DNA from: a virus
Virus record (IMG/VR): IMGVR_UViG_3300005582_000035
Span: 1-37,779 of that record
Length of the DNA stretch: 37,779 nucleotides
Reading direction: 5' to 3' (one strand)
In this document: piece after piece, positions 9,641 to 29,102 of the stretch
How positions within the stretch are numbered: the stretch's first letter is position 1
Layout: every line of letters starts with the position of its first letter
Position numbers and translations under genes: made by a program
Notes under the pieces: model-generated
Databases searched by the model: none
The model's input: only the letters and a program-made list of their open reading frames with translations
Told to the model about the DNA's origin: nothing

Positions 9641-11632
9641 TTAAAAACGTGATTGATATCCAACGTATGCCACTGGGGTAACTGATTTAGAGCCTTGATT
9701 ATCAAATATCGTGCTAAAACTAATAATTGCACGATCATCTTTGGCAAACAATCTAAGCGGTGCGCTATAGCTCATAGTTGTTGCCATTTGTCTATACGAT
9801 GTTTTAAGACTTACGTTATCTGTAGTATTAATAGGTGTTGCTGAAGTATTGCCGTCACTGTCTTCTGTATAAGTGTAACCTGTAGTAGCACTAACTGTGG
9901 CATGTCCTTTAGTAACAAACGGAAGAACAGTAAATTTAAAATCCAAGGTATCTTTATTTACAAAATTCAAATTAGTTTTGTATCCCATATGGTAACTCAT
10001 TGTTTGAATATTACTGTAACCTGAGATTAATCCGTCAGCTGAGGCTTTTGCATTTGTTTTACCAAAAGACATGCCTCCGTATAATTCAGTTTGATCCTGT
10101 AAATTATATCCAGCACTAACACCATAGAACGAAGTTGATGCAGTACCTGGATTAAATGCACCTGCGCCCTGTGAGCCCAAAACACCGTTGCTCTCAGTAA
10201 CTGATCCTGCTTCCACACCAACCCATCCAAACTTAGTATCTAATTTTTGTCGTGTAGCAAAACCATCATAGCTTTGCGAGAATTCGTAACCGACTGATCC
10301 TGCTTTAAAGCCGCCGTAATTGGCCTGTGCAGTACTAAGACCCATGTAAGTAAAATTCTGATTAAAGTTCGTAAGATTATTAACCATTACTTTGCTCATA
10401 TCTAAAGCATAGTTTCTTCCATAATTATCAACAAACTGGGCATTATTCATAATGCTAGTGGTAGTTAATGCACCCAATGCTCCAGTAACCATACCAGTAG
10501 TCAACTGGGTATTGCTTTGGGCCAAGCCTGTTTTACTTGACAATGCCAGTGTGCCCTGAGGCATAGTTGCTTTATTAAGATCCATAATACCTTGTCCATA
10601 TATCTTAGGATCGTATCCGGGTATGTTTTTGTTTGCAGTTGTTGTTAACAGTTGAACAATTTGTTCTGGCTTTAACGTAGGCCATGCTTGTTTAAGTATT
10701 GCTACTCCGCCCGACACGACCGCAGTTGCAGGACTGGTACCACTTACTCTATTTACTGCCTGTATGCTACCACTTTGGGAAGCACTAATACTTGCTCCTG
10801 GAGCTAGAATATAAAAGTCACTGATTTTATAAGTGTCTTTACATACACTGTTAATAAATTGGTTACAAATACTACCAGCCTTATTGCTCCATGGAGCAAT
10901 CTGACCCAAGTCATTAACTGCGCCCACAACCAATGCTCGGCCACCTAATATCAATTTGCCGTCGCCGCCAGTTAATGTAACAAAGTTTGCGGGTGCAGAC
11001 GGTACTGGGTTCCCATCATTGCCCGCGGCTATAACTAAGATACTGCCCTTTTGTGTAGCATAGGCCATATATGGCAACGTGGTGTTCATGGTCCTATATG
11101 CATCGTTACCAAATTTACTTTTATATACACCATTGCCCAAGTCAGTATAATAATTCTTAAAATTATAAGACTGTATACTAGTACCCAAGCTCATATTAAT
11201 TACACCAGCACTTCTGTCGGCCAAATACTTCAAGCCTTTTTGGACGCCATTCTCGTAGATATTTTGACCAATTCCTGCTTTGTAAGATATAATATTAGCA
11301 TCATACGCCACACCTACAATACCAACATTATTTTTTGCGCCTGCCGCAATACTAGCCATATAAGTTCCGTGGCCTCGAATATCATCAGCATATATACCAG
11401 AGTATAGTCCACTTGCTGAAACTACTTTTGATCCTAAATCTTTATTCTTCAAATCAACGCCGGTGTCTAGAATACCAATTCGTTGACCTTTACCAGTAAA
11501 GCCTCTAGCCCATGCGTCTTGCACACCTACTAGGCTATAGGCATTTACATTCATTGTTTGTTCTACTGTTTGGGAGTAAACAGGGCTGAACATCGTTCCT
11601 ATAGTAAGTGCAATTAAACTTTTTTTAAACAT
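9641..11632 (-). CDS. Secreted subtilisin-like serine protease with C-terminal beta-barrel-like domain
   Basis: 663 residues. A signal peptide ends near residue 20 (FSPVYSQ). The S8 catalytic set is complete: Asp56 (ILDTGVD), His88 (RGHGTYMA), Asn205 (AAGND) and Ser300 (SGTSPATA). The catalytic domain ends near residue 360. The remaining 300 residues are glycine/aromatic-rich alternating strands finishing ...VAYVGYQSRF with terminal Phe. That is the signature of outer-membrane barrels and autotransporters, which present a protease on the cell surface. Such a protein is unusual in a phage. It may alter the infected cell surface, or be host-derived cargo. ATG at 11632 behind AAGGAGT; own promoter at 11665-11693. 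Confidence 0.88.
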   Translation of the reverse strand: MFKKSLIALTIGTMFSPVYSQTVEQTMNVNAYSLVGVQDAWARGFTGKGQRIGILDTGVDLKNKDLGSKVVSASGLYSGIYADDIRGHGTYMASIAAGAKNNVGIVGVAYDANIISYKAGIGQNIYENGVQKGLKYLADRSAGVINMSLGTSIQSYNFKNYYTDLGNGVYKSKFGNDAYRTMNTTLPYMAYATQKGSILVIAAGNDGNPVPSAPANFVTLTGGDGKLILGGRALVVGAVNDLGQIAPWSNKAGSICNQFINSVCKDTYKISDFYILAPGASISASQSGSIQAVNRVSGTSPATAVVSGGVAILKQAWPTLKPEQIVQLLTTTANKNIPGYDPKIYGQGIMDLNKATMPQGTLALSSKTGLAQSNTQLTTGMVTGALGALTTTSIMNNAQFVDNYGRNYALDMSKVMVNNLTNFNQNFTYMGLSTAQANYGGFKAGSVGYEFSQSYDGFATRQKLDTKFGWVGVEAGSVTESNGVLGSQGAGAFNPGTASTSFYGVSAGYNLQDQTELYGGMSFGKTNAKASADGLISGYSNIQTMSYHMGYKTNLNFVNKDTLDFKFTVLPFVTKGHATVSATTGYTYTEDSDGNTSATPINTTDNVSLKTSYRQMATTMSYSAPLRLFAKDDRAIISFSTIFDNQGSKSVTPVAYVGYQSRF

Positions 11633-11664: not shown

Positions 11665-11693
11665 ATTATACAATATAATCCAATTAATGTCAA
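11665..11693 (-). promoter_or_regulatory. Sigma70-type promoter of the subtilase gene
   Basis: TTGACA (11688-11693), 17-base spacer TTAATTGGATTATATTG, TATAAT (11665-11670), minus strand. The -35 box overlaps the ATG of the divergent gene at 11687. A TATAAT on the plus strand (11674-11679) lies in the same spacer. Confidence 0.85.
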
Positions 11694-12307
11694 CTTATTT
11701 TACTCCAATTGTTGCAGATTTCTCACAGTTAAAATCCAAACTGCAAACTACATTCTTGTCCGAATTCAAAGATTTAATGGACCAAAAAGGAACGCACGAC
11801 TATGCAGATATGTTACCTGACCGATTAAGGTCAATTAAGGTCTTCAATTGGATTGAGTCAGTGTGCCCTGTTGTTACTGTTAAGTTCTTTGTTACCAAAG
11901 CAAAAAGTTTTGGTGGAATACACATTGATGGTAACTTGCATGATTTCCCATTTAAACGATGTGCTTTAAATATTCCCTTGTTTAACTGCGATAGTGGAGT
12001 ACAAGTATGGTATCAAGATCGTAGCGATCCGGAAGGCCTAACCAGATTAATCAAAGAGCACAGAAAAGGATACAACTTTTATTTGGCTCCTGACAGTTTG
12101 GATCAAACTAATTGGGAACCAGTTGAAACAATGCCTCCGTTAAACGAAGTCAGATTGGTCAAAACAGACAGCTGGCACAACGTGGATAACCGAACCAATC
12201 CTAGTCATCGTGTAGTCGCATCGTTGCGATTTGTGGATAACCCTGAGTATGATAGTTTGGTATCAGGCTTTGCGATTAATAAGTTCAGCAATGAAAGCAC
12301 TAGCTGA
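11687..12307 (+). CDS. 2OG-Fe(II) oxygenase-like protein, paralogue 1
   Basis: 206 residues with a probable double-stranded beta-helix. Iron ligands are likely His79 and Asp81 (IHIDGN) and His164 (SWHN), with a 2-oxoglutarate-binding Arg near 175 (HRVV). The segment KRCALNIPLFNCDSG is shared in form with 12576, 13739 and 27258. The substrate is unknown; relatives hydroxylate amino-acid side chains or small molecules. The ATG lies seven bases after a plus-strand TATAAT with no Shine-Dalgarno, so a leaderless mRNA is possible. The 3' end overlaps the convergent ACP gene by 45 bases. Confidence 0.75.
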   Translation: MSTYFTPIVADFSQLKSKLQTTFLSEFKDLMDQKGTHDYADMLPDRLRSIKVFNWIESVCPVVTVKFFVTKAKSFGGIHIDGNLHDFPFKRCALNIPLFNCDSGVQVWYQDRSDPEGLTRLIKEHRKGYNFYLAPDSLDQTNWEPVETMPPLNEVRLVKTDSWHNVDNRTNPSHRVVASLRFVDNPEYDSLVSGFAINKFSNESTS

Positions 12308-12526
12308 ACCAATTGTAGTCAAACGCTCTGCATCCTTTTTATCAGGAATATCAAATTCGTACTTCTCTTGAATTTCAACTAGAACTTCTAGAATGTCTAG
12401 GCTATCTAGGTCTAAGTCTTTGATCAGATCAGTATCGCCGGTGTAAGAATCAGTATCTTTTCTACGTAGTACCGTTTTAATTAAATCAATAAATTCTGCT
12501 TGGATTTGTTCGGCTGTTACTGTCAT
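12263..12526 (-). CDS. acpP: Acyl carrier protein
   Basis: 87 residues, the usual ACP length. The phosphopantetheine site is D-L-D-S42-L-D (IKDLDLDSLDILEVLVEIQE), followed by the helix III/IV pattern and a C-terminal FIAELINRKA. ACP carries growing or finished acyl chains on a phosphopantetheine arm added by a host transferase. Four membrane desaturases lie about 8 kb away in the same window, which makes a phage acyl-modification pathway plausible. ATG at 12526 behind AGGAG; an AGTAAATA late-type element 31 bases upstream suggests late expression. The symbol is by similarity; no fatty-acid synthase genes surround it. Confidence 0.9.
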   Translation of the reverse strand: MTVTAEQIQAEFIDLIKTVLRRKDTDSYTGDTDLIKDLDLDSLDILEVLVEIQEKYEFDIPDKKDAERLTTIGSASAFIAELINRKA

Positions 12527-12575: not shown

Positions 12576-13124
12576 TCATTTAAAAGTTGCTAATGCTTCT
12601 TTGTATGGCATGTTTGGTCCTAAACTCAAAATCATCCTATTAGGCCTAGACAAGTTACTGGCGCAATGAGGCTGATGTGCGTTTAATAGATATGTAGTAT
12701 ACATGTCTTGAGTATACTTTGTCAATACTATTTTTTCTCCAGTTAATAAAAAATTCATTCTTTTTATTTCGTTGTTATATGTTGCTTTGCTTTGTAATTT
12801 AGTATCATCAAATATAACGGTATCTGCACCTTCACCACAATTGTGGATTGGTATGTTTAGCGCACACGGACGCATGTCTTGGTGGATGGTCCAGAATGGA
12901 TCAGTTTTAGTAGCGTCGGGATCAGTTAGGTATATACCAAAAACTTTGTGGAATAACTTTTCTGGATAGAGTTTATAAAATTCACTGAGAAACGGTTCTA
13001 GCAATTCTCGTTTAACTGGATACCCTACCCCTCGTCTAACTACGTCTTTACAGTTATTAAAAATTATAGTTTGATCACTTGGGGATATTTTAATTGAGTT
13101 AACCTGACTGAAGTATTGGTCCAT
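12576..13124 (-). CDS. 2OG-Fe(II) oxygenase-like protein, paralogue 2
   Basis: 182 residues. HQD at 81-83 (WTIHQDMRPCALNIPIHNCG), distal His at 150/153 (AHQPHC) and Arg163 (NRMILSLG) give the HxD...H...R set. It is the closest paralogue of 27258-27818: both have RP-ALNIPI-NCG-GADT- in the same place. Substrate unknown. The start MDQYFSQ has no ribosome site; AATAAATA ends exactly five bases before the ATG, which suggests a leaderless late transcript. Confidence 0.78.
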   Translation of the reverse strand: MDQYFSQVNSIKISPSDQTIIFNNCKDVVRRGVGYPVKRELLEPFLSEFYKLYPEKLFHKVFGIYLTDPDATKTDPFWTIHQDMRPCALNIPIHNCGEGADTVIFDDTKLQSKATYNNEIKRMNFLLTGEKIVLTKYTQDMYTTYLLNAHQPHCASNLSRPNRMILSLGPNMPYKEALATFK

Positions 13125-13129
13125 ACTGA

Positions 13130-13137
13130 TATTTATT
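13130..13137 (-). promoter_or_regulatory. T4-like late promoter element, 5 bases from ATG
   Basis: AATAAATA, then TCAGT, then ATG at 13124 (minus strand). Confidence 0.7.
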
Positions 13138-13159
13138 AACTACAACTATAATTAAATTA

Positions 13160-13666
13160 TCAGGCTGTTTTTTTAATGTAACAAATATCAGCTTGTTGAC
13201 CATGCAATAACCATCCAACGGGAATACTTTGTACAGGTCCATCCCACATAATAATTCCTCCTGTAGGAATATTAGAAATAGGTGTAAGACTACTAATCCA
13301 TTGTGATTCATTTCCTTGGAATCCGTGCGATACTGCCAATTCATATGCACTTGCACCAGTTTGTCCAAGTAAACCGCGTGGACCAGGATCTCCTTGGAGG
13401 CCGCGCTCACCTTGTGGGCCAGCAGGCCCAGCCATACCACGTGGTCCAGTGTCACCGATTGGTCCAACATCTCCTTTTGGGCCGCGGGCGCCGTCATTGC
13501 CAGTCACTCCTTGTTGTCCTTGTGGTCCAACATCGCCTTTTGGTCCTTGCGGTCCTGTTGCTCCGCCAGCTGGACCACGGTCGCCTTTTGGTCCAGCTTT
13601 ACCTGGAATTCCTTGTGCCCCTGCTGGGCCACGTGCCCCTGCTGGGCCTCGCATCATTGTTGCCAT
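13160..13666 (-). CDS. Collagen-like phage tail/fibre protein with short collar domain
   Basis: Residues about 7-105 are Gly-X-Y triplets rich in Pro ([12 protein letters not shown]), a collagen-like triple helix as in phage tail fibres. [15 protein letters not shown] follows, a common linker in tail proteins. The end is a tail-collar-type start ([20 protein letters not shown]) that stops after about 30 residues, whereas full collar domains are longer. The protein may be a short accessory fibre or adhesin. ATG at 13666 behind GGGGA; a late element AATAAATA lies 21 bases before the start. Confidence 0.8.
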
Positions 13667-13738: not shown

Positions 13739-14341
13739 ATGACCAACTATAATTATGACATTGCACTACCAGTTGACTTTGAATACGACTTATCATTTTT
13801 TCAAAACCATTATCAAACGCACTATGCTAAGTCTATAGCAGTAGGTTATGGTGATGAAAATCCTGCCAATGTACCTTACTTTAAATCATTAATGGACAAA
13901 TATGATTTCTTAGACAATCATTTGGGGTGGTTTAAAATTTTACCTGCTTATACATTTCCATTACACATAGATAAAACAGAACAGTATCCACGTAATGCAG
14001 TACTAAACATTCCAGTATATGACTGCGACGAGCATACGTCAACTAATTATTATGATATACCGGAAGATGATCCTAACTGGGATCAACCCAGTACCACTAA
14101 TCAGATGATGAGTAGAGCAATGTGGTATAATGTTATTCGATGCGGGCCGGCAAATATGCCTAAGCCAGTATATACATTTAATTGTACTGAGCCAACGTTA
14201 CTTAATGTAACCCTTCCACATGATGTTAAGAATCGAGGAAGGAAAACTAGAGTGCTGGCCAGCTGGCATATAAAGCCAAATAAATTTGACCAAGCCAGAG
14301 ATTATTTAGAATCAAAGGGACTGATAAAACAGTGGAGATAA
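13739..14341 (+). CDS. 2OG-Fe(II) oxygenase-like protein, paralogue 3
   Basis: 200 residues. HID at 76-78 (FPLHIDKT), core strand NAVLNIPVYDCDE, distal His161 (LPHDV) and Arg171 (TRVLASWH). The HxD...H...R set is intact. Similar in build to the genes at 11687, 12576 and 27258. The start has no Shine-Dalgarno, but TATAAATA is placed five bases before it. Ends just before a hairpin terminator at 14341-14369. Role unknown. Confidence 0.77.
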   Translation: MTNYNYDIALPVDFEYDLSFFQNHYQTHYAKSIAVGYGDENPANVPYFKSLMDKYDFLDNHLGWFKILPAYTFPLHIDKTEQYPRNAVLNIPVYDCDEHTSTNYYDIPEDDPNWDQPSTTNQMMSRAMWYNVIRCGPANMPKPVYTFNCTEPTLLNVTLPHDVKNRGRKTRVLASWHIKPNKFDQARDYLESKGLIKQWR

Positions 14342-14782: not shown

Positions 14783-14988
14783 CCGGCCCACCTCAGGGCA
14801 AACAGTAATGCATCTTTTTCGTCACTGAAGAAATACACAATGTTAGGGTCATTAACCCTAACCCAGCCACCTGGCACCTTCTTTAGTCTTGTGGTATTAA
14901 CAGACTCATTTGTGATATAACTAGGGCAATGTGTCTTAGCCCAATCTAAAGCTGTCCAAACCGGATCGTATGGTAGTGTAACTGTCAT
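14779..14988 (-). CDS. Small DAL-tail family protein (69 aa)
   Basis: Begins MTVTLPYDPVWTALDWAK and ends YFFSDEKDALLFALRWAG, the family tail seen at 5169-6094 and 16130-16989. Start coupled by ATGA to the SulP gene; no ribosome site of its own. Stop codon embedded in the -35 box of promoter 14754-14782. Function unknown. Confidence 0.72.
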   Translation of the reverse strand: MTVTLPYDPVWTALDWAKTHCPSYITNESVNTTRLKKVPGGWVRVNDPNIVYFFSDEKDALLFALRWAG

Positions 14989-16133
14989 GTTTTGCTTGCG
15001 ATATGTTTCCAGTAGTATAACATGCTGGTCAATACTACTCCAAGTAAAACGGCATAGGCTAAATTGAATACAACTGTGGCCACGGTAACTGTCAGCATCA
15101 CAGCAATGTCTTGTCTTGGCTTACCTTTAAAAGATAAACTGCTCCAATCAAATGTGTGATAGCACACTACACACATGACACCAATCAGGGCCGCAATAGG
15201 TATTGATTCAATTATGAAACTAGCAAACACAATATAAGCTAGGATGGCCAATGCTTCCACTACGCCTGCCAAACGGTGATGTCCACCTGCTTCCAAGTTG
15301 ATAACAGTTTGCCCAATCATAGCGCAACCGCCCATGCCACCAAACAGGCCTGTCAACACATTACCTGCACCCTGAGCCATGCTTTCCCTGTTGGGCTGAT
15401 TTGTTCCGCCAATGGTCTTGTCCACTAAGTTGGCAGTTAGTAGTGTTTCAATTAGGCCAACCGCGGCCAGTATCACGCTGTAGGGTAGCACGATCCATAA
15501 TGTTTCTAATGTGAATGGCACGTTAGGTAAATGGAATGAGGGCATGGCTCCACTAATATGAGCTATGTCTCCTACTGTTTTTGTTGTGATGCCAAACGCA
15601 TATACCACAGCAGTCACAAGCACAATACCAAACAAACTTCCCGGTATATGCCGAGTAATCCGTGGAGCAATTAGTACTCCGAGAATAGTTACGCCGATTA
15701 ATCCCAACATAGAGTACAAGGCAAATCCTTGGGCAGGAATTTCATGAAACTGTGCCATAAAAATTACCAAAGCCAATCCATTCACAAAGCCTGTCATTAC
15801 ACTGGGCGATACCAGCTTGATTAGCTTGCCTAACTTGAACGCTCCAAACGCAAACTGTATCGCACCCATAAGCACAATACAGGCAAACAAGTATTCTACT
15901 CCATGTGTTACAACCAGTGCCACACTGACCACAGCCAAGCTACCAGCACCTCCACTTATCAAGCCAGGTCTGCCTCCAAACAAAGCAGTGACTAGTCCTA
16001 GTATAACTGCGGCATACAAACCTACTAAGGGATTAACGTGTGCTAATAGTGCAAAGGCCACAACCTCTGGCACCATAGCAAGACTTGTGGTAATGCCTGC
16101 TAGGGTATTGCGTGTTATTGCCTGCGTATTCAT
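14985..16133 (-). CDS. SulP-family inorganic anion transporter, STAS domain missing
   Basis: 382 residues, almost wholly hydrophobic, with about ten or more helices. Family marks: NTLAGITTSLAMVPEVVAFA near the N-terminus, LFGGRPGLISGGAGSLAVV, and GGTNQPNRESMAQGAGNVLT with FGGMGGCAMIGQT. SulP proteins move sulfate, bicarbonate or related anions across the inner membrane. It stops right after the last helix (SMLYYWKHIASKT), so the usual cytoplasmic STAS domain is absent. ATG at 16133 overlaps the stop of a 23-codon gene; an in-frame GTG at 16142 is an alternative. A transporter in a phage suggests metabolic support of the infected cell. Confidence 0.9.
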   Translation of the reverse strand: MNTQAITRNTLAGITTSLAMVPEVVAFALLAHVNPLVGLYAAVILGLVTALFGGRPGLISGGAGSLAVVSVALVVTHGVEYLFACIVLMGAIQFAFGAFKLGKLIKLVSPSVMTGFVNGLALVIFMAQFHEIPAQGFALYSMLGLIGVTILGVLIAPRITRHIPGSLFGIVLVTAVVYAFGITTKTVGDIAHISGAMPSFHLPNVPFTLETLWIVLPYSVILAAVGLIETLLTANLVDKTIGGTNQPNRESMAQGAGNVLTGLFGGMGGCAMIGQTVINLEAGGHHRLAGVVEALAILAYIVFASFIIESIPIAALIGVMCVVCYHTFDWSSLSFKGKPRQDIAVMLTVTVATVVFNLAYAVLLGVVLTSMLYYWKHIASKT

Positions 16134-16201
16134 TCTGCCCACTTAATTAAGAACATGGTGATTTGTTTTTCATTCTTAAACTGCCAAACATTAAAGCTCA
16201 T
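16130..16201 (-). CDS. 23-aa mini-gene consisting only of the DAL-tail motif
   Basis: Reads MSFNVWQFKNEKQITMFLIK followed by Trp-Ala-Glu and stop. The last 16 residues align with the tails of 14779 and 16198. ATGA overlaps couple it to both neighbours (start in the stop of 16198-16440, stop in the start of the SulP gene). The length is extreme, but the overlap structure and the similarity support a real gene. Confidence 0.5.
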   Translation of the reverse strand: MSFNVWQFKNEKQITMFLIKWAE

Positions 16202-16769: not shown

Positions 16770-16989
16770 GATGTAACCTATATAAAAAATATGATTCTTT
16801 AGTCATTAAAAAATACCCAGCGGTAGGAACTGGAATCCACTCATCTTCGCCGGCGGGCAATGATGCAATACACCATTGTAATAATGACTTCCAACCATGA
16901 CGACCTACTCTTACTTTAAGATACTCTAACTTAGGATCCGTCAGGTTTGCTTTGATCAAAGTACGTTGGATAGTTTTCTGGAAGCTCAT
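16735..16989 (-). CDS. Small phage protein, distant DAL-tail relative (84 aa)
   Basis: Begins MSFQKTIQRTLIKANLTDPK and contains GWKSLLQWCIASLPAGEDEW and YFLMTKESYFLYRLHHGD, the position where family members have their LRW tail. It continues 10 residues further than the others. It overlaps the oxygenase-like gene at 16931 by 59 bases in another frame, an unusually long overlap. AGG ribosome site before the ATG. Confidence 0.68.
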   Translation of the reverse strand: MSFQKTIQRTLIKANLTDPKLEYLKVRVGRHGWKSLLQWCIASLPAGEDEWIPVPTAGYFLMTKESYFLYRLHHGDRSAIHQET

Positions 16990-17581
16990 AATTAGACCTA
17001 TACAATACGTCGGTTAGTTGATTATATTCATGATTGCCTTGCCACGGAGATCCAAATGCCACTGTATATTTTACTAATTCGAAATTATTAATCATTCCGT
17101 GTGGCCAACTGCCGTCCATAATAAATGGTTTAGATGTGTTAGGTATATGCACTCGTTCTCCGTTCTTTGTAATAAAATAAAGACTGTCTGTTCGTCCCTG
17201 TAATACAAATCTTAATTTATGTTGTAATAATCCAAAGGATGAAGGATCACAATCAATATGTTCCTTATTTTCTTGCCCGGGCTTTGTTGCCAGTACCATA
17301 ATACGTGTGTTACCAGTGATAGGCAATATATACTTTTCGCAATATTCTCTGAGAGTAGGAGGAGCATAACTGGTCCATGCAAAATCTCCAGTACCGCTAC
17401 CTTCTGTATAATGACTTACATTTTCAGGTCTCCCGTGTAGAGTCATCACCGGAAGCATAGTAGTTGCTCTATAACTATCCCAAAACCAATACTTAAATAA
17501 AGTTAAGTTTTTAATTTCAGATAGTGCTTTTTTTCTATCTATTTCAGGGATGTCTAATGCACCATATAATAGATCATTCAT
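16931..17581 (-). CDS. 2OG-Fe(II) oxygenase-like protein, paralogue 4 (divergent)
   Basis: 216 residues. HID at 108-110 (KEHIDCDPSS) and distal His161 (SWPHGMIN). The usual Arg is replaced by Lys171 (ELVKYTVAFG), so 2-oxoglutarate binding may differ. The N-terminal 80 residues have no counterpart in the smaller paralogues. Unlike most of its relatives it lies within an early-type operon (starts in the stop of 17578-17697) and has no late element at its start. Substrate unknown. Confidence 0.7.
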   Translation of the reverse strand: MNDLLYGALDIPEIDRKKALSEIKNLTLFKYWFWDSYRATTMLPVMTLHGRPENVSHYTEGSGTGDFAWTSYAPPTLREYCEKYILPITGNTRIMVLATKPGQENKEHIDCDPSSFGLLQHKLRFVLQGRTDSLYFITKNGERVHIPNTSKPFIMDGSWPHGMINNFELVKYTVAFGSPWQGNHEYNQLTDVLYRSNYELPENYPTYFDQSKPDGS

Positions 17582-17697: not shown

Positions 17698-17912
17698 TCT
17701 GATTCGTACTCCTCTGTATATGTTTCACTTAGGTCAACAATGTCGCTGAGTTCTTTTGCTCCACGACGAATGTATTCCTTGCCGCCATCAGTGAATATGG
17801 CACCACACTTACAAGATACAAAATCATGTCGGTGTCTGCTTTCAATAATATCCAGGCATAGTTTACACTGACATTTATTTACTACAACTACTTCTCTTGT
17901 TCTAGTTACCAT
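17691..17912 (-). CDS. Small zinc-binding phage protein (DUF7695-like)
   Basis: 73 residues. Cys16, Cys19, Cys34 and Cys36 (CQCKLC...SCKCG) flank IIESRHRHDF, followed by GAIFTDGGKEYIRRG. I know this arrangement from a widespread uncharacterised phage/bacterial family (IES-x-HDFV-C-CG-DGG-Y). A zinc ribbon is likely; no function known. It overlaps the end of the SGNH hydrolase gene. Confidence 0.75.
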   Translation of the reverse strand: MVTRTREVVVVNKCQCKLCLDIIESRHRHDFVSCKCGAIFTDGGKEYIRRGAKELSDIVDLSETYTEEYESEW

Positions 17913-18330
17913 TTTTAGTTTCCTCTGCTAGTGCTTTATAGCCTTTCCGACTTGGATGTATTTTATCCGATTGCAACGACAGTATTGGTAATACTACGTC
18001 ATTGTAATCGTCAGCTACTAATTTAACCATTTTTTGTACATCCACTATACTAACATCGCTTTTGGGATGATTACCAGCTGGTAAAATCCAATAAACTTTG
18101 TCAGCAAATACTCTTCGTCTTAGTTCTTGTAATTCCCATAATGTTCGCACACCTGCATGATCATTTGATCCCAGGCTTATAATAACTGTTTTGGCGGCAA
18201 GGCTTTGTTGCTTGTTTTGTTTATTCCATTGCCAACTATTAATGCCGCCTTTTGCATACGCTACACATTCAGGTCTGAACTGTTGGGTACCTACTGCAAT
18301 GCTATCACCTAAAATTAAACAGTCTAACAT
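17902..18330 (-). CDS. SGNH/GDSL-type hydrolase
   Basis: 142 residues. Block I GDS with Ser10 (LILGDSIAVG), block III GSND (Asn56), block V with Asp122 and His125 (DKIHPSRKGY). The Ser-Asp-His set of SGNH hydrolases is complete. The family removes acyl or acetyl groups from carbohydrates and lipids. No signal peptide, so it acts in the cytoplasm or virion. Shorter than most members (about 180-200 aa). Start coupled to the phosphatase gene by TAATG, with AAGG upstream. Confidence 0.82.
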   Translation of the reverse strand: MLDCLILGDSIAVGTQQFRPECVAYAKGGINSWQWNKQNKQQSLAAKTVIISLGSNDHAGVRTLWELQELRRRVFADKVYWILPAGNHPKSDVSIVDVQKMVKLVADDYNDVVLPILSLQSDKIHPSRKGYKALAEETKNGN

Positions 18331-19296: not shown

Positions 19297-19317
19297 ATAT
19301 TTCCTTTATGTTAACTG

Positions 19318-19391
19318 GCCCGGCGTAGTGGAATCGAACCACTATTCACACTTTAGAAGAATGTTGTCCTGTCCATTGAACGAACGCCAGG
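19318..19391 (-). tRNA. tRNA-Arg (TCT)
   Basis: Acceptor CCTGGCG/CGCCGGG, anticodon loop CTTCTAA, T loop GTTCGATTC. First transcribed element of the omega operon. Confidence 0.9.
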
Positions 19392-19442: not shown

Positions 19443-19874
19443 ATGAAATATTGGCAACCATACGTTAAAGCAGGCTGGGAAATTGTAATGGAAGCCCAGG
19501 GTAAAAGTCATATAATTTTGGATACTGAAGTGGAAGCATTTTTGGTTCATGTGATTGCCAAAACAATGGAACGCACTAATATTTGGGAACAACCTATTTC
19601 ACTTAAAATACTAACTGCTCAATCTTTGTTTGGAACACGAAAGGCCAATGCATTACAAGATATTGGAGAAGAATGTTTATTCATCGATGGCTGGCAAATT
19701 AAGAATAGCAAATGGCCTACAAAACAGTATTTCGCTGATATGGGGGAAATAGCATTTGGTATGGCTAGCACTAGTACTAATCCAGCCAACGAGTTATTGG
19801 AAATGGCCAGCAACAATTTTAAAATTATGAGTTCAGTGCTTAGAACTGCACGTAACCTTAATGGCGCCCCTTGA
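19443..19874 (+). CDS. Unknown phage protein (143 aa), probable leaderless late mRNA
   Basis: Begins MKYWQPYVKAGWEIVMEAQG. Contains LFGTRKANALQDIGEECLFI followed by DGWQIKNSK, and a helical C-terminus. No HxD motif, so it is not one of the oxygenase-like proteins, though it shares their promoter arrangement (CATAAATA five bases before ATG, no ribosome site). Its last 13 bases are antisense to the 3' end of tRNA-Arg(TCG). Function unknown. Confidence 0.72.
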   Translation: MKYWQPYVKAGWEIVMEAQGKSHIILDTEVEAFLVHVIAKTMERTNIWEQPISLKILTAQSLFGTRKANALQDIGEECLFIDGWQIKNSKWPTKQYFADMGEIAFGMASTSTNPANELLEMASNNFKIMSSVLRTARNLNGAP

Positions 19875-19936
19875 TGGAATCGAACCACCATCCTGAGTTT
19901 CGAAGACTCTAATTCTATCCATTGAACTAAAGAGGC
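19862..19936 (-). tRNA. tRNA-Arg (TCG)
   Basis: Acceptor GCCTCTT/AAGGGGC, anticodon loop CTTCGAA, encoded CCA. Its first bases contain the TAG stop of the upstream oxygenase-like gene. Confidence 0.9.
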
Positions 19937-20475
19937 TTTATATAGTCCTTTAACATATCAACAGTTTTATTCCATGGCTTACCCGGCCAAAACCTAACAC
20001 TAAGACACCATCTGTCGTCATTACTATTGTTTATTGTCTTATGTGGTATATCTGTTCTTACTAATGTTGGTACTGTAATTTGATGTCTTGCAATTTCTGT
20101 AACTTCGTTGTCTAACCAATATATGTGTTCTCGCTTACTACCCGTTACGTATTCTATGTTACCTTCAGTCAACGGGTCGTACCATATCATTTCACTGGAC
20201 TGTCCGCTCAGTACCCAATTGATTGCGGCAGGCACTGGATTTTTAATTCCGTCTGTGTGTATTTTACATTCGCGACCTGCTTTGCCATAAAATAAATGTA
20301 CAAAATGTGGCATTGACTTAATTTCTTTAAACCATGCAAATACTTCATCAGACAATATATCTTTAGCTTCGGGTAACCATATGGTCCACGGATCAGGTAT
20401 GCTGGTTACATCGGGGAATACAAAATTAGGATTAAGTGGATTAGTAATAGGTAAAGTTAACGGATAGTAATTCAT
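19927..20475 (-). CDS. 2OG-Fe(II) oxygenase-like protein, paralogue 5
   Basis: 182 residues from the ATG at 20475, which overlaps the stop of the last desaturase gene (ATGA); GGAAAGG lies further upstream. HTD at 73-75 (CKIHTDGIKNPVPAAINWVL), distal His145 (DIPHKTINN) and Arg155 give an intact HxD...H...R set. Closest in form to 27793-28362 (both have AINWV/ALNWV after the HxD). It ends inside the 5' end of tRNA-Arg(TCG). Being cotranscribed with the desaturases, it may act on the same product. Confidence 0.77.
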   Translation of the reverse strand: MNYYPLTLPITNPLNPNFVFPDVTSIPDPWTIWLPEAKDILSDEVFAWFKEIKSMPHFVHLFYGKAGRECKIHTDGIKNPVPAAINWVLSGQSSEMIWYDPLTEGNIEYVTGSKREHIYWLDNEVTEIARHQITVPTLVRTDIPHKTINNSNDDRWCLSVRFWPGKPWNKTVDMLKDYIKPL

Positions 20476-21248
20476 TTTGCAAATACCTTTCCTATGATCC
20501 ATCCAACACTGTCAAATTCATTTGGCTTCATTGCAAAATTCCATGCACCTTGCTGGTGGTGGTGATTGTTGTGGTATGCTTCCCCGGGATGAAATATTCC
20601 AAGCCACGGAGTATTATAACTGTTATCAGCAGTATCGAAATTTCTATAACCGCCAGGTAACTTTGAATGTGTGAGTATGAGTCCGCAGATAATTGTATTA
20701 ATCTGAAACACACGTCTGCCAGTTAATAATACAAACACAACGAACTTCCAACTAACAATGGCCAACAACAAACATATAACTGTAAACACTTTACTGGCAT
20801 GTTTATGACAGAATACAAGAACAGGATCGCGTATTAAATCAACCGGCCATGGAAAACTTTTTGCACGGGCACGTAAATTTGTATGTAACTGTTCTGTAAA
20901 AATTGTATAACTTAAAATCTTCCACACCCCGTCCATTGGGCTGTGAGGATCATCTTTGGTATCTGCATTTTTATGATGCTTGCGATGCATAGCAGTAATA
21001 GTAATAGGATCGCCTGGGCCAAATATTGTACAAGCTGTTAAAAAATAGTGTCTGAACTTTCCTGTTTTAAAACTTTTATGACTAAAGTATCTATGGCTAG
21101 CAATCTCTTTACTAAGAATCTCTATAACAATCTTTTCCCACAGTAACATAATTACCAGCCAATACCAATCTGCAGGATTTATAATAATCCATCCTATTGT
21201 AAACAAAAACGCAATACTAGCGATGTTGCTAAGATTAATGTATTTCAC
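20472..21248 (-). CDS. Membrane fatty-acid desaturase, copy 4 of the tandem
   Basis: About 258 residues from a GTG start at 21248 with AGGA eight bases upstream. The three histidine boxes of acyl-CoA/acyl-lipid delta-9-type desaturases are intact: HRYFSH, HRKHH and HNNHH (YHNNHHHQQGAWNF). Hydrophobic stretches at the N-terminus and between boxes II and III provide the membrane helices. These di-iron enzymes introduce a double bond into acyl chains and need an electron donor, here presumably from the host. Shorter than typical bacterial forms (about 300 aa or more). Start overlaps the end of copy 3. Confidence 0.88.
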   Translation of the reverse strand: MKYINLSNIASIAFLFTIGWIIINPADWYWLVIMLLWEKIVIEILSKEIASHRYFSHKSFKTGKFRHYFLTACTIFGPGDPITITAMHRKHHKNADTKDDPHSPMDGVWKILSYTIFTEQLHTNLRARAKSFPWPVDLIRDPVLVFCHKHASKVFTVICLLLAIVSWKFVVFVLLTGRRVFQINTIICGLILTHSKLPGGYRNFDTADNSYNTPWLGIFHPGEAYHNNHHHQQGAWNFAMKPNEFDSVGWIIGKVFAK

Positions 21249-22059
21249 GTAAGCTATCCTTTTCTGCAAATATATATTTTATTGCATACGCAACATAATC
21301 TATTTCATCTGGTTTTGTACTTTGATTCCAAGCGCCCGGTTTAGCATGATGATTATTATGAAATCCGTCTCCGAACCACCAATTGATCCATTTTGTATTG
21401 TAACTGTTATCAGTCGTATCAAAATTTCTATATCCACCCCATGCTTTTTTATGGCCATATACAATGTTAAGGATTCCGGTTTCAGCAAGAGCAAGGCCTA
21501 CACCAAATACATATCCAAATATAAGTAATTTCCACGACACTAACACACATAATAACATTGTACCTAAGCATAACACGGCTAGATTGTTATGTATAAACCT
21601 CGCCGACCTGTCACGTAGTAAATCAAATGGTACTGTTGCTTTATCCATATACCCACTGTAGTTAAATCCTAATACTAATTTTCGATTATAACTTAAACTA
21701 CTCCATATACCATTTAATGGGCTATGTGGGTCCTTAGGTGTGTCGCTGAATTTATGGTGGAATCTATGTATTGCGGCCGCAGTAACTGGACTCACAGCCG
21801 CAAATATAGACGATATACAGAAAAATTTATGCACCCGGTCACTAACTTTAAAACTACGATGACTAAAATATCTATGTAACATCATGCTACGAACCAATGG
21901 TTGCACATATAGACGAACCCAAATAATGCCGCCCAATAGCCAAGGCCAGTCACTGGGGTTAAAACAAACCCATAGAAAACAAAAAGGTATACTTATGATA
22001 CTTGATATACGAAGTGTACTGATTAGTAATGCAGTTTTATTAATATCATTTAATTTCAT
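21235..22059 (-). CDS. Membrane fatty-acid desaturase, copy 3 of the tandem
   Basis: 274 residues. Boxes HRYFSH, HRFHH (IHRFHHKFSD) and HNNHH (FHNNHHAKPGAWN) are intact. The start MKLNDINKT at 22059 lies 14 bases inside copy 2. NPSDWPWLLGGIIW near the N-terminus is almost repeated in copy 2 (NPSDWPWLLAGIIF), showing recent common origin. Same reaction class as copy 4; regiospecificity cannot be read from sequence. Confidence 0.88.
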   Translation of the reverse strand: MKLNDINKTALLISTLRISSIISIPFCFLWVCFNPSDWPWLLGGIIWVRLYVQPLVRSMMLHRYFSHRSFKVSDRVHKFFCISSIFAAVSPVTAAAIHRFHHKFSDTPKDPHSPLNGIWSSLSYNRKLVLGFNYSGYMDKATVPFDLLRDRSARFIHNNLAVLCLGTMLLCVLVSWKLLIFGYVFGVGLALAETGILNIVYGHKKAWGGYRNFDTTDNSYNTKWINWWFGDGFHNNHHAKPGAWNQSTKPDEIDYVAYAIKYIFAEKDSLREIH

Positions 22060-22843
22060 TAACAAATACCTTATCGACAATCCATCCTGCTAAATCAAAT
22101 TCGCCTGGCATAATTGCCATGTTGTACTTGCCCGGATACATATGATGATTATTATGATAGCCTTCTCCGGGACTTAGTATTTCCAAAAATTTAGAATTAT
22201 AACTCTGGTCTGCTGTGTCAAAGTTTCTGTAACTTCCCCAAATCTTCATATGTACTAATGCAATAAAAATAATACTGTTGTTTATTGCAGTTAATCCTGT
22301 AGCAAAGAACAAACAAAATACCATTAACTTCCAACTAATTAACAGACATAACAAGGCGTACACGCCATACACTAAAATGCAATTGTTATGTAACCACATA
22401 AGTGAAGGATCTCTCATTAAGTCAACCGGCAACTGCATTGCTTTTTTATTCTGTACTACTCGTTCTCTCCAAAACAATGAATTCCAAAAACCATATATCT
22501 TAGGGCTATGTGGGTCCTTATTAGTATCACTGTGTTTATGGTGGTATCTATGTACTGTGGCCGCAGTTAACGGACTGTTGGTACTAAATGAATTTGCAAA
22601 CAGTAAAAAGTAATGTTTAGCTTTGCTAGTTTTAAAACTTCTATGACAGATGTAACGATGGAAAGCAATATTTTTACCTATCATGCCAACAAAAAACTTG
22701 CCAAATATAATTCCTGCTAATAGCCATGGCCAGTCACTGGGATTAAAGAACATCCATAGTATTGTAATCGGCACACTAAAAAGGCCAACTCGTTTCCATA
22801 AAAATTCTAAAGGTCGTGCCCCTATCTGTTTGTCTTCTATCAT
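22046..22843 (-). CDS. Membrane fatty-acid desaturase, copy 2 of the tandem
   Basis: 265 residues. Boxes HRYICH, HRYHH (VHRYHHKHSDTNKDPHSP) and HNNHH (YHNNHHMYPGKYN) are intact. Start overlaps the stop of copy 1 (ATGA) with no ribosome site, so translation is coupled. The HKxSDTxxDPHSP segment after box II is common to copies 2 and 3 and close in 1 and 4. Confidence 0.88.
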   Translation of the reverse strand: MIEDKQIGARPLEFLWKRVGLFSVPITILWMFFNPSDWPWLLAGIIFGKFFVGMIGKNIAFHRYICHRSFKTSKAKHYFLLFANSFSTNSPLTAATVHRYHHKHSDTNKDPHSPKIYGFWNSLFWRERVVQNKKAMQLPVDLMRDPSLMWLHNNCILVYGVYALLCLLISWKLMVFCLFFATGLTAINNSIIFIALVHMKIWGSYRNFDTADQSYNSKFLEILSPGEGYHNNHHMYPGKYNMAIMPGEFDLAGWIVDKVFVNEIK

Positions 22844-23595
22844 ATAAACAATTTTTTAACTACCCATCCTGCAAAATCATATTCGCCGGGCGCTGTTGCT
22901 TGATTGTATTTACTAGGATACTTGTGATGATTATTATGTAATCCTTCACCTATATCAAGTATCTGTAAATATTTGTTATTCCAACTATCATCAGCTACGT
23001 CAAAATTTTTGTAGCTTCCTGGTAGCCTCATGTGAAATAATGCACTTCTAAACAAGCCCATGTGCAAGTAATTCCAGCCTATGCCTGCTAAAAATATAAA
23101 TGCTGATAAGCGCCAATCAATTAAGCATAACATTATGTTGCCAAAGATAATAATGTTGTACATATTTTCGTGCAATATTAACAAAAACTCGTCTCTCATT
23201 AAATCAATTGCCGGTTTCACTTTTTTATCCATGTTCCATGACCAAGTAAACGCACTATGTATAAATCCATTATTCGGACTATGTACATCTTTGATTGTGT
23301 CACTGTATTTGTGATGTTGACGATGTACACTTGCATACACTATCGGACTAATTGCTGTAGTACAAGATACTATAGCTAGTAATTTATGAACCAATGGGGT
23401 CGCTTTAAAACTGTTATGACTAAAATATCTATGTTGCGCTATTTGATTTCCAAACAATCCAACTACAATTTTATAATACAACAGGCTATAAATGATCCAG
23501 GTCCAATCTTCGGCCACAGTCCAGTATAATAAAAAGAATAAACTTGCGTAACCTGCTAGTTGAAGCAGTCTGGATAAAGTTGGATTATAGTGCAT
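22840..23595 (-). CDS. Membrane fatty-acid desaturase, copy 1 of the tandem
   Basis: 251 residues, first gene of the cluster. Boxes HRYFSH, HRQHH and HNNHH (LHNNHHKYPSKYN) are intact; DVHSP replaces the DPHSP seen in the others. TATAAATA lies seven bases before the ATG and no ribosome site is seen, so cluster expression is probably late. Only 31 bases separate this start from the divergent gene at 23627. Confidence 0.88.
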   Translation of the reverse strand: MHYNPTLSRLLQLAGYASLFFLLYWTVAEDWTWIIYSLLYYKIVVGLFGNQIAQHRYFSHNSFKATPLVHKLLAIVSCTTAISPIVYASVHRQHHKYSDTIKDVHSPNNGFIHSAFTWSWNMDKKVKPAIDLMRDEFLLILHENMYNIIIFGNIMLCLIDWRLSAFIFLAGIGWNYLHMGLFRSALFHMRLPGSYKNFDVADDSWNNKYLQILDIGEGLHNNHHKYPSKYNQATAPGEYDFAGWVVKKLFI

Positions 23596-23626: not shown

Positions 23627-24220
23627 ATGAAACAAGTTGATATTTTGCCTCCGTATTGTTATCCAATTGACGGAATAACCGTAGATCAAAAACAACTATA
23701 TGACAGTATTATAACACTATTAAATAGGCTTTGTCTAGATATTGACGATATATGTTCTAGGCTAGGCTTTGCTATTAATTTAACGCATTTACCTGGACTG
23801 GTCGGAGAGGATGCGTGGCGCAAATATAGTGCCAGCCATGCACATTTAGTAGAACAGAACATAGATGAAGCCAATTTCACCGAGCATTTAAAAGAGGCCG
23901 AAGATTTATATGTGGGTAAATTAGTTCATAAACTGTATGACAGACATCATGGATTCTGTGGGCGAGCACAGCTTGTTTGGTTAGGTCCTAACAATGGTTA
24001 TAGGTTTCATACTGATCCGCATACCCCAAACAGGTATCATGTGCCTATAGTGACCAACACTGATTGTTATTGGTTGTTTAAAGATGACAAGGATGTGTAT
24101 AAGTTACACATGCCAGCAGATGATAGAGTATGGTATTTGGATCCAATTAATATAACACATACATTTCATAACGGATCTAATACTGCCAGGTTGCACTTGT
24201 TATTAACTAGTGCTACTTAA
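23627..24220 (+). CDS. Aspartyl/asparaginyl hydroxylase-like 2OG-Fe(II) protein, paralogue 6
   Basis: 197 residues. HTD at 128-130 (YRFHTDPHTPNRYHVPIVTN), distal His181 (THTFHNGS) and Arg188 (TARLHLLL). The H-D-P-H-x(3)-R-Y-H-x-P-I pattern resembles aspartyl beta-hydroxylase-type enzymes. The N-terminal 100 residues are helical and specific to this member. Divergent from the desaturases; TGTAAATA stands five bases before the ATG. The end overlaps the convergent gene 24217 by four bases. Confidence 0.78.
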   Translation: MKQVDILPPYCYPIDGITVDQKQLYDSIITLLNRLCLDIDDICSRLGFAINLTHLPGLVGEDAWRKYSASHAHLVEQNIDEANFTEHLKEAEDLYVGKLVHKLYDRHHGFCGRAQLVWLGPNNGYRFHTDPHTPNRYHVPIVTNTDCYWLFKDDKDVYKLHMPADDRVWYLDPINITHTFHNGSNTARLHLLLTSAT

Positions 24221-24927
24221 TCTATCAAAGTTTTTTCGTGTTCTTTGATTACTGCAACCAAGTCCTCTGCCCTTACATTATCAAAATCTAGTCCTACATT
24301 AATGCGTTTTGCGCCGCCATATCTGTGTACGCTATGCCATGTTAAGTGATTAAACACGTACCAGTTACCTTGTTCTATCGTGGCATTTACTACACATTCA
24401 ATTTTATCTAAATCTGGAATCCTAGTAGTAGATATTGTTTCAAATGGTGCAGTGGGCTCATACCATCTTGTTTGTTCATTACTACTTTGTAAAAGTAAAA
24501 ATATAGAACACTTGCGTTTGTGCCCATGATGTGCAGGTAATACACTACCACCTTCACCAATTTGAAAAATCGGTACAGGCTCTCCTGGACTCAAGTCTTT
24601 AAGAAACTGCGGAGTCAAATCTAACAGTTCTTGTGCGGCATCATCCGGCAGATAAAATTGCTTAAATTCTATAGGATCCTCGCCCGGGTAAGTATTTTTA
24701 ATTTGTTTATATCTACGTAGTAGCTCTTTACTTTTTTCTAAGCCGATACTTTCGTACACACCCCAAGGATCTTTAAGACCATTTTCATAGTTCGCACGAG
24801 GAGGAAAATAACTGTCGTCCCTATTTGCTTGCTGTCGCAGACGTTCACCAAATTCTAGTCCAAATGTTAACTTAGTTTTATAAATGTATTTGTCGGGATT
24901 GATCCCGGATTTTAATGTTTCTATCAT
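24217..24927 (-). CDS. 2OG-Fe(II)-like protein with HxG in place of HxD, paralogue 7
   Basis: 236 residues. The expected metal site reads H133-H134-G135 within LPAHHGHKRKCSIFLLL, while relatives have HxD there. Distal His198 (LTWHSVHR) and Arg208 (KRINVGLDF) are kept. In Fe/2OG halogenases the Asp is replaced by Gly or Ala to make room for halide, so halogenation is a possibility. Loss of activity is the simpler alternative. Located opposite 23627. The ATG is six bases after a TATAAT box. Confidence 0.7.
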   Translation of the reverse strand: MIETLKSGINPDKYIYKTKLTFGLEFGERLRQQANRDDSYFPPRANYENGLKDPWGVYESIGLEKSKELLRRYKQIKNTYPGEDPIEFKQFYLPDDAAQELLDLTPQFLKDLSPGEPVPIFQIGEGGSVLPAHHGHKRKCSIFLLLQSSNEQTRWYEPTAPFETISTTRIPDLDKIECVVNATIEQGNWYVFNHLTWHSVHRYGGAKRINVGLDFDNVRAEDLVAVIKEHEKTLID

Positions 24928-27257: not shown

Positions 27258-27818
27258 ATGCTATATTATAAAATATCTCTACCTGCATTAATGTATACTG
27301 AGGATGATAGGCAAGAGTTAATACAACTTTTCAAAGGCCGTGGTCGACAAGGACATGGCCAAATGATTAACTTAGATGATTTTGATTCTAATTATTTTCG
27401 TAAACTACAAAATAATTTTCCTGTTAGTAACATTGCAGTATTACATTATACTACACCAAATGCTATAGTCAATGATAAAATGTATAAAATGATACATCGC
27501 GATCCACGACCTGTTGCACTTAATATACCCATTCAAAATTGTGGTATTGGTGCCGACACAATTTTTTATACTGTAGATAGTGTTGTAGAACGATTAGAGT
27601 CAATTGGTAACGGACAGTATAAAGCAACTTCGTATTCGGAACAACCAACTGGAGCAGTAGAATTAGATAGATTCTGTTTAACTATGGACTCTGCAATGTT
27701 ACTAAGAACAGATCATCCACATGCTAAAGTTCAAACTACCGATGCTCATAGAATGTTTTTAAGCGTGACACCTATTATAGGTTTTGAAGATTTCATTCAG
27801 CTATTAGACCCACACTAG
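27258..27818 (+). CDS. 2OG-Fe(II) oxygenase-like protein, paralogue 8
   Basis: 186 residues from the ATG at 27258; the in-frame GTG just before it would break the promoter spacing shared with its relatives. HRD at 80-82 (KMIHRDPRPVALNIPIQNCG), distal His155 (DHPHAKV) and Arg165. Clear paralogue of 12576-13124: same length, same RP-ALNIPI-NC order, GADTI next. No ribosome site. Its 3' end overlaps the convergent gene 27793 by 26 bases. Substrate unknown. Confidence 0.78.
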   Translation: MLYYKISLPALMYTEDDRQELIQLFKGRGRQGHGQMINLDDFDSNYFRKLQNNFPVSNIAVLHYTTPNAIVNDKMYKMIHRDPRPVALNIPIQNCGIGADTIFYTVDSVVERLESIGNGQYKATSYSEQPTGAVELDRFCLTMDSAMLLRTDHPHAKVQTTDAHRMFLSVTPIIGFEDFIQLLDPH

Positions 27819-28362
27819 CAAGTTTATCTCTTGTTCTATAATAAGGCCATAGCCAATTATCACGGAACAATATACTCACTGTAATTCGATCTTTCATTTC
27901 TTCACCTACCACAACTCTGTGAGGAACCGAAGTATCAACCAAATATTGTTTTTCATGTGGCAACGTTTGACAAGTATAAGGATCATTAAACCGACCGGCC
28001 GCGGCGGCAGTTGCTAGACCATTTGTATGTCCATCCAGTATCATACTATCATTCCATTGAATAACCCCGATACCTTGCACTACCCAATTCAATGCACATT
28101 TTGTAGTGCCTTTTTCATTGCCATCGATATGCCATGGGAAGAAAGGCCGACTGTGCCATTTAAACACTCTTGCCATTGATAGCCTGAGTCCTATGCTTTT
28201 AAACTTTTCATGTATTTCTGTAGGCCAAATATTGTTTAAGTCTATAATCGGTTTCCAACGTGGTGTGGTTTCACCAATAGGTGAACTGTCGCCCCACACA
28301 GTTTGCCAATCTATATTTGGCAAGGGAATATTAATATTCGAATAAAAGTCTCTGTCCTTCAT
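27793..28362 (-). CDS. 2OG-Fe(II) oxygenase-like protein, paralogue 9
   Basis: 189 residues from the ATG at 28362. The frame is open further upstream only because it crosses a tRNA gene. HID at 78-80 (FFPWHIDGNEKGTTKCALNW), distal His148 (SVPHRVVVG) and Arg159. Closest to paralogue 5 (19927). ATTAAATA ends five bases before the ATG and shares its first A with the CCA end of the upstream tRNA. Probable leaderless late mRNA. Confidence 0.78.
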   Translation of the reverse strand: MKDRDFYSNINIPLPNIDWQTVWGDSSPIGETTPRWKPIIDLNNIWPTEIHEKFKSIGLRLSMARVFKWHSRPFFPWHIDGNEKGTTKCALNWVVQGIGVIQWNDSMILDGHTNGLATAAAAGRFNDPYTCQTLPHEKQYLVDTSVPHRVVVGEEMKDRITVSILFRDNWLWPYYRTRDKLASVGLIAE

Positions 28363-28499: not shown

Positions 28500-29102
28500 T
28501 TATGTAAACAATTTATTTTTCATTTCGTCAAAAGTCACAGCACTAGGATCTACTAGACGTAATGTAACTACTCTTCGCTTATATGGAGATTTAATATTTT
28601 GCCAAGCATGCCATATGTTAGGATTAAACAATATCATTTCTCCTTCTTTGGCTACCATAGATTTTATAGGTTTAAACATAGCTAACTTATTATAATCTGA
28701 AAATATATGCCTAACATATGGCATTCCAGTTGGTTGGCTGTGCCTCATTTCGATATCGCTGTAAAACGTTGTTTCGCATAACTCGTCATGTGTTTCTATG
28801 ATTATGTTAAAGCTAGTCAGTGACCACATTCCGTCCTTATGTATTCCGCATCCACCGCCAGGCGGAGTTTCGAAAATAGCAACTCTTTCTTTGTTAAACG
28901 GAACAAGATTGCTCATTGGCAACATGTCCATTATTTGCAATGCAATATCTTCATGAAAGTCTAAATGACTATATCCTATAAACTTATTATGTAGATGTAC
29001 TAAGTGATCATGTTCTTTTATGAACTGTACTATTTTATCTAAACCTTCAAATGTAAATCGAACGTAGTAAGGACTGCAATCTTCTATTATTGTGTATCTC
29101 AT
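28500..29102 (-). CDS. 2OG-Fe(II) oxygenase-like protein, paralogue 10
   Basis: 200 residues. HKD at 88-90 (GCGIHKDGMWSLTSFNIIIE), distal His165 (PNIWHAWQNI) and Arg176/177. FETPPGGGCGIHKDG is typical of small oxygenases of this fold in viruses. GTTAAATA ends five bases before the ATG; no ribosome site. Followed by tRNA-Met downstream. Substrate unknown. Confidence 0.78.
   Translation of the reverse strand: MRYTIIEDCSPYYVRFTFEGLDKIVQFIKEHDHLVHLHNKFIGYSHLDFHEDIALQIMDMLPMSNLVPFNKERVAIFETPPGGGCGIHKDGMWSLTSFNIIIETHDELCETTFYSDIEMRHSQPTGMPYVRHIFSDYNKLAMFKPIKSMVAKEGEMILFNPNIWHAWQNIKSPYKRRVVTLRLVDPSAVTFDEMKNKLFT

Follow-up and report, generated by a model that had tools for sequence, protein, structure and literature searches.

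Four overlapping SCD1-type desaturase genes and a 2OG-Fe(II) oxygenase gene in a phage genome fragment: a candidate acyl-tailoring cassette

We analyzed a stretch of 37,779 nucleotides (here called the window) that comprises positions 1 to 37,779 of the IMG/VR virus record IMGVR_UViG_3300005582_000035. At the locus of interest, four membrane fatty-acid desaturase genes lie head to tail on the minus strand (20472-23595; Table 1). The viral origin of the record is indicated by a match to the RNA-binding family phrog_850 (4e-141), with homologues in 681 phage records, and tail-fibre and collagen-like matches were found as well; the source is probably an uncultivated tailed phage. The genes are designated A, B, C, and D in the order of their transcription. 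Their products carry the histidine boxes HRYFSH, HRQHH, and HNNHH (A); HRYICH, HRYHH, and HNNHH (B); HRYFSH, HRFHH, and HNNHH (C); and HRYFSH, HRKHH, and HNNHH (D). A and B overlap by 4 bp (ATGA), and the overlap is 14 bp for both B/C and C/D. For desaturase D, the start was taken to be the GTG codon; the mechanical open reading frame (ORF) begins at TTG 21269. All four ORFs are intact, with neither frameshifts nor internal stops, and the pairwise identity among the copies is ∼34 to 45%. An earlier reading made from the sequence alone had described four head-to-tail genes with all boxes and with overlapping starts and stops, a description borne out by the ORFs, by a motif check, and by Pfam. 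The four genes stand, but that reading omitted a fifth gene encoding a 2-oxoglutarate (2OG)-Fe(II) oxygenase (19927-20475), whose start overlaps the stop of desaturase D by ATGA.

What type of enzyme do the four genes encode? A search of the whole record with the Pfam family PF00487 (FA_desaturase) returned four matches over the cut-off. On the exact ORFs, E-values ranged from 1e-6 to 1e-13 (B, 9.6e-14; C, 2.3e-13; D, 1.8e-11); desaturase A scored 29.0 bits as an exact ORF, against a cut-off of 29.7, and 31.5 bits in the record search. When the desaturase sequence profile was compared with solved structures, SCD1 was the sole match (2.9e-16). The AlphaFold2 (AF2) model of desaturase B, with a predicted local distance difference test score (pLDDT) of 91.7, matched SCD1 with a Z of 22.6 and a root mean square deviation of 2.9 over 245 residues (SCD1 Z range, 21.8 to 22.6), whereas AlkB, at second rank, was a far weaker structural match (Z 8.5). 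The ninth SCD-type histidine, located between boxes 2 and 3, is present in all four copies, and an alignment revealed that the nine ligand histidines are invariant across 20 viral relatives. The array thus shares with SCD1 and the bacterial Delta-9 desaturases the fold, the nine histidine ligands, and the four-helix membrane topology, but it differs from them in identity (22 to 24%) and in length (251 to 274 amino acids [aa] versus ∼320 to 340). Judged by sequence and model, the four copies are SCD1-type membrane diiron acyl desaturases in their predicted activity. The earlier proposal that they may differ in specificity fits their divergence with all catalytic residues kept.

A Pfam search of the protein encoded by the fifth gene returned no match. 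Its HxD...H motif (H73, D75, and H145) is invariant in an alignment of its 19-sequence family, and its AF2 model (pLDDT 91.2) adopts a cupin/double-stranded beta-helix fold that matches the non-heme hydroxylase 7v4m (Z 11.6), proline 3-hydroxylase (Z 10.9), and AspH (Z 9.5). An iterated profile from this family revealed ten 2OG-type proteins in the window.

The sequence-only reading had also placed the array under one element, the 8-mer TATAAATA, considered here as a candidate late promoter. A promoter is not supported: the 8-mer is not enriched in the window (2 occurrences versus 4.8 expected by chance), and the starts are only 5 to 7 nt away. The copy upstream of the array ends 7 nt before the ATG of desaturase A, and its use as a T4-type late promoter would therefore leave almost no leader; the second copy lies upstream of the 2OG gene at 13739, 5 nt from its ATG. 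TATAAATA may still have a regulatory role.

The relationships among the copies were analyzed in a tree of 185 desaturase sequences (FastTree). Viral and bacterial desaturases fell into separate groups (4 label changes versus ∼55 in shuffles), and the branch holding the array copies is largely virus-only. B, C, and D are united in one clade (support 97); A lies beside this clade, at an exact place that is weakly supported, and its nearest sequence in the tree is the phage copy L011. Given this clade and the position of A beside it with another phage sequence, the simplest reading of these sequences is that the array arose by duplication within the phage lineage. The bacterial relatives found (the best 80 of the scan) are only 28 to 35% identical, which together with the tree rules out separate recent captures from hosts. 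Pseudogene decay is ruled out by the intact ORFs, by the catalytic residues kept, and by dN/dS ratios (nonsynonymous to synonymous substitution rates) of 0.02 to 0.18 between related phage desaturases; these ratios come from near pairs where they were computable, as many pairs are saturated and A to D themselves are too divergent for the calculation. A history of separate recent host acquisitions with decay, which the earlier reading had raised against itself, fails on the phylogeny, given the B/C/D clade and the adjacent position of A.

Zhong et al. 2020 described two Arctic cryopeg viruses, each carrying five desaturases, and proposed a role in membrane fluidity (PMC7300359), and the multiplicity of phage desaturases is therefore not new in itself. 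Runs of at least three adjacent desaturases were found in five of 69 non-redundant viral loci, with 7, 5, 4, 4 (the window), and 3 copies; three tandem desaturases were also found in two records of the control set described below. The earlier statement that four intact paralogues are unusual is correct as to the four intact copies, but their unusualness has to be qualified in view of these arrays and of the published five-copy phages. Lipid desaturases of cyanophages were reportedly the subject of Roitman et al. 2018. The tandem desaturases in the virus records G088 (92352-92966) and G089 (12773-13408) contain one in-frame TGA each, which may reflect recoding or decay.

We searched 50 desaturase-bearing virus records for acyl-biosynthesis genes. 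An acyl carrier protein (ACP) was present in 16, and in 9 of these 16 it was located within 250 bp of a desaturase; the expected number was 0.46, and nine was never reached in 20,000 random placements. A ketoacyl synthase (KAS) was present in 9 of the 50 records, three of which (G036, G037, and G044) show it in an ACP-desaturase-KAS run, and the phosphopantetheinyl transferase AcpS was present in 5, directly adjoining a desaturase in G005 and G006. In L028 (3705-13496), an ACP, a TauD-type oxygenase, an SDR-like gene, and AcpS precede a tandem run of seven desaturases. In L066 (3508-9816), an acyl-AMP ligase (FAAL), a tryptophan halogenase (3e-87), two desaturases, a GNAT-like protein, and a KAS lie in a row, an arrangement suggestive of an acyl biosynthetic cluster carried by a phage. 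DHFR- and ThyA-like genes lie next to this row. In the 228.8-kb virus record L067 and in L037, desaturases are accompanied by ACP, GNAT, Rieske, radical SAM, ATP-PPase or ATP-grasp, and fatty acid-hydroxylase-like genes (families confirmed on representatives), a recurring multi-oxygenase neighbourhood. One additional record, L006 (CAKLQH020000002.1, Acinetobacter phage MD-2021a), is filed as phage but looks like a bacterial chromosome (it has btuB, trpC, and baeSR, and a sister contig has acpP); its desaturase match should be left out of the viral count.

Is this association particular to the selected records? As controls, we used 50 phage records chosen by ribonucleotide reductase. Eleven of them carry a desaturase, usually single and without an ACP, and two carry an ACP, both of which are desaturase bearing (Fisher 0.045). 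When the controls were pooled with the selected set, the association of ACP with desaturase gave a Fisher value of 3.6e-5. Among the best 80 bacterial desaturase loci of the same enzyme family, none had a match to the ACP profile within 6 kb (0/80). The 2OG profile matched 32 of 70 viral desaturase loci versus 1 of the 80 bacterial loci, a contrast that is biased upward because viral neighbours went into building the profile. In the open-licence papers searched, no description was found of a desaturase array combined with ACP, AcpS, or KAS, and the new aspect looks to be the acyl-biosynthesis setting of the arrays, not their copy number.

The locus also resembles other known systems. The virus-encoded fatty acid desaturases (vFADs) of the Arctic cryopeg viruses (PMC7300359) and of Pelagibacter phage Mosig are, as in the window, SCD-type three-box desaturases of aquatic phages, multi-copy cases included, and Mosig also pairs its desaturase with an Asp_Arg_Hydrox gene. 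The array is only ∼28% identical to the Mosig enzyme, and the window differs from known vFADs in its overlapping four-gene operon with a 2OG oxygenase and in the ACP in its genome. Bacterial alkyne and polyyne clusters combine jamABC (FAAL, desaturase, and ACP) with two extra desaturases, a thioesterase, and a rubredoxin, as in cay and pgn (PMC8406139). The window shares with these clusters several desaturases and an ACP, and the related phage L066 adds an acyl-AMP ligase beside desaturases; no AMP-binding ORF, rubredoxin, or classical thioesterase was seen in the fragment, and a GDSL hydrolase is present. Cyanophages P-HM1 and P-HM2 encode an ACP, AcpS, Asp hydroxylases, TauD, and an S8 peptidase (PMC3037559). 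Phage ACP, 2OG-type oxygenases, and S8 peptidase are common to these cyanophages and the window, whereas AcpS was not seen in the window. Biosynthetic gene clusters have been reported on phage genomes, according to a 2025 review (PMC12360287). Taken singly, desaturases in phages, their multi-copy occurrence, and phage ACP/AcpS are already known.

Our data suggest that acyl molecules are built or tailored by some aquatic phages, a role beyond mere softening of the host membrane. We favor the reading that the array consists of SCD1-type desaturases, duplicated in tandem in phages, that share an operon with a 2OG-Fe(II) oxygenase gene within a phage-encoded acyl-tailoring cassette, and we give this reading close to an even chance of being correct. 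A more specific proposal, which we consider unlikely although not far-fetched, is that some aquatic phages run a dedicated acyl-ACP line, with their own ACP, AcpS, and KAS, four to seven serial desaturases, tailoring by 2OG, Rieske, and radical-SAM enzymes, and in one case an acyl-AMP ligase plus halogenase. During infection, such a line would yield an acyl natural product that is polyunsaturated or oxidised, and the window would be one such cassette.

Several observations weigh against an acyl-tailoring cassette. The window ACP lies 8 kb from the desaturases and is embedded among 2OG genes, and FAAL, KAS, AcpS, ferredoxin, rubredoxin, and a classical thioesterase were not seen in the 37.8-kb fragment. 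No ACP was found in 34 of the 50 desaturase-bearing records, and, as several of the ACP-bearing records are related, the number of independent cases may come to six or seven. In the reverse search from ACP, a desaturase was nearby in only 4 of 73 viral loci, so the linkage runs from desaturase to ACP and not in reverse; 14 ACP records from the same set, searched whole, contained no desaturase, and none was found in the P-HM1 genome, which has ACP and AcpS. Finally, the only NCBIfam match of the desaturases was DesA, far below its cut-off. Pseudomonas DesA is an acyl-lipid enzyme.

How do other explanations account for these data? The strongest rival is that the genes are membrane-fluidity auxiliary genes, with the four enzymes desaturating host membrane acyl-lipids for infection, assembly, or cold tolerance. 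It is a strong rival because published phage desaturases, up to the five copies of the Arctic viruses, are interpreted in this way (PMC7300359) and because the weak NCBIfam match is DesA; the SCD1-like fold and the usually single, ACP-free desaturases of the control phages are also in its favor. This explanation leaves two things unaccounted for, namely, four divergent copies translated together with 2OG oxygenases and the ACP, AcpS, and KAS genes adjacent to desaturases in related phages, and we regard it as plausible but somewhat doubtful. The sequence-only reading had offered membrane fluidity or an acyl product as alternatives. The acyl product appears to be the better half, since the ACP, AcpS, KAS, FAAL, and 2OG neighbours in related phages make fluidity alone not the best reading.

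The enzymes might instead catalyze another oxidation (hydroxylation, acetylenation, or decarbonylation) of a substrate outside the membrane, for example a carrier-bound amino acid, a glycan lipid, or a virion component, with the 2OG enzymes acting on the same scaffold. AlkB-type hydroxylases belong to the same broad di-metal membrane superfamily and were the second-rank structural matches, the neighbours include 2OG, Rieske, radical SAM, GNAT, and halogenase genes, and the window ACP lies among 2OG genes. We nevertheless consider this improbable, as the ligand set and fold are of the SCD type, with AlkB far behind SCD1 in the structural comparison, and the proposed substrates are hypothetical. 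A dosage array or selfish duplication, in which four copies of the same function are kept by drift in a hypervariable region, would agree with a head-to-tail array in a region rich in auxiliary metabolic genes and with a copy number that varies widely among phages. Such an origin is very hard to reconcile with copies that have diverged so far and yet are all full length with nine ligands, or with purifying selection on related phage desaturases, and we give it little weight.

If the array does belong to an acyl-tailoring cassette, each desaturase would be powered by O2 and a host reductant, perhaps ferredoxin or a similar donor, and would remove two hydrogens from the acyl chain. The copies may work in series, acting at different positions, with different chain-length preferences, or on successive intermediates, while the acyl group could be tethered to the phage ACP or to a host ACP. 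The 2OG enzymes might oxidise the acyl group further, before its final transfer to an acceptor that could be a lipid, a glycan, a virion protein, or a small molecule. Phage desaturases have so far been interpreted singly, as membrane-fluidity helpers. Their linkage with carrier protein, activating, and condensing enzymes would, if this reading is true, mean that phages own modular acyl biosynthesis and possibly make lipids or metabolites beyond the capacity of their hosts. It also raises a question for the many unexplained 2OG oxygenases of aquatic phages: are their substrates carrier-bound acyl groups?

The other 2OG genes and the ACP gene are distributed over the window (Table 1). The window ACP is flanked by two 2OG genes and has a 90% identical, syntenic copy in L254, a 14.5-kb phage record that keeps the ACP/2OG block with most genes 65 to 90% identical. 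The contig of the nearest relative (L254/L327) stops within its counterpart of the fifth gene, immediately downstream of where the array would lie, beside a tRNA-Arg gene as in the window. The protein encoded at 23627-24220 matched the 2OG profile at 3.9e-33, with its own sequence included in that profile. A protein similar to that of 24217-24927 is encoded in L067 (3308-4000), and a homologue search baited with the 24217 protein found no relatives. The GDSL/SGNH hydrolase is, speculatively, a possible acyl hydrolase or thioesterase of the module.

Table 1. Coordinates of the desaturase array and other features in the window
Feature	Position	Strand	Remarks
Desaturase A, SCD-type membrane diiron acyl desaturase (predicted)	22840-23595	-	251 aa, ATG; nine His kept
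Desaturase B	22046-22843	-	265 aa, ATG
Desaturase C	21235-22059	-	274 aa, ATG
Desaturase D	20472-21248	-	258 aa, GTG, AAGGA upstream
2OG-Fe(II) oxygenase, fifth operon gene	19927-20475	-	182 aa; start overlaps D stop (ATGA)
Divergent 2OG oxygenase, Asp_Arg_Hydrox-like	23627-24220	+	31 bp from desaturase A; weak PF05118, 0.015
2OG-like, HxG replaces HxD (two-His type, as in AspH or halogenases)	24217-24927	-	iterated profile 3.4e-24
2OG oxygenase adjoining ACP	11687-12307	+	profile 2.8e-17; 67% in L254
2OG oxygenase adjoining ACP	12576-13124	-	profile 1.8e-8; 81% in L254
2OG oxygenase	13739-14341	+	profile 5.7e-13
2OG oxygenase	16931-17581	-	profile 4.9e-4; 4.9e-25 after iteration
2OG oxygenase	27258-27818	+	profile 2.5e-9
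2OG oxygenase	27793-28362	-	profile 1.5e-12
2OG oxygenase	28500-29102	-	profile 9.8e-10
Acyl carrier protein (ACP)	12263-12526	-	87 aa, DSL serine; PF00550 2.2e-8, TIGR00517 1e-13
GDSL/SGNH hydrolase	17902-18330	-	PF13472 9e-7; assigned to ORF by GDSI motif; syntenic in L254
Subtilase (S8) domain protein	9641-11632	-	C-terminal part resembles autotransporter barrel
Collagen-like tail protein	13160-13666	-	near 2OG oxygenases
SulP-family transporter (sulfate/bicarbonate permease)	14985-16142	-	
RNA polymerase omega/Rpb6-like protein, phage encoded	19096-19296	-	PF01192 1.8e-17; similar gene in L043
tRNA-Arg	19316-19390		just downstream of operon
tRNA-Arg	19862-19936		just downstream of operon

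The 2OG oxygenases near the collagen-like tail protein could be its hydroxylases and not acyl-tailoring enzymes. The 37.8 kb of the window contain 19 tRNA genes, including the two tRNA-Arg genes listed in Table 1.

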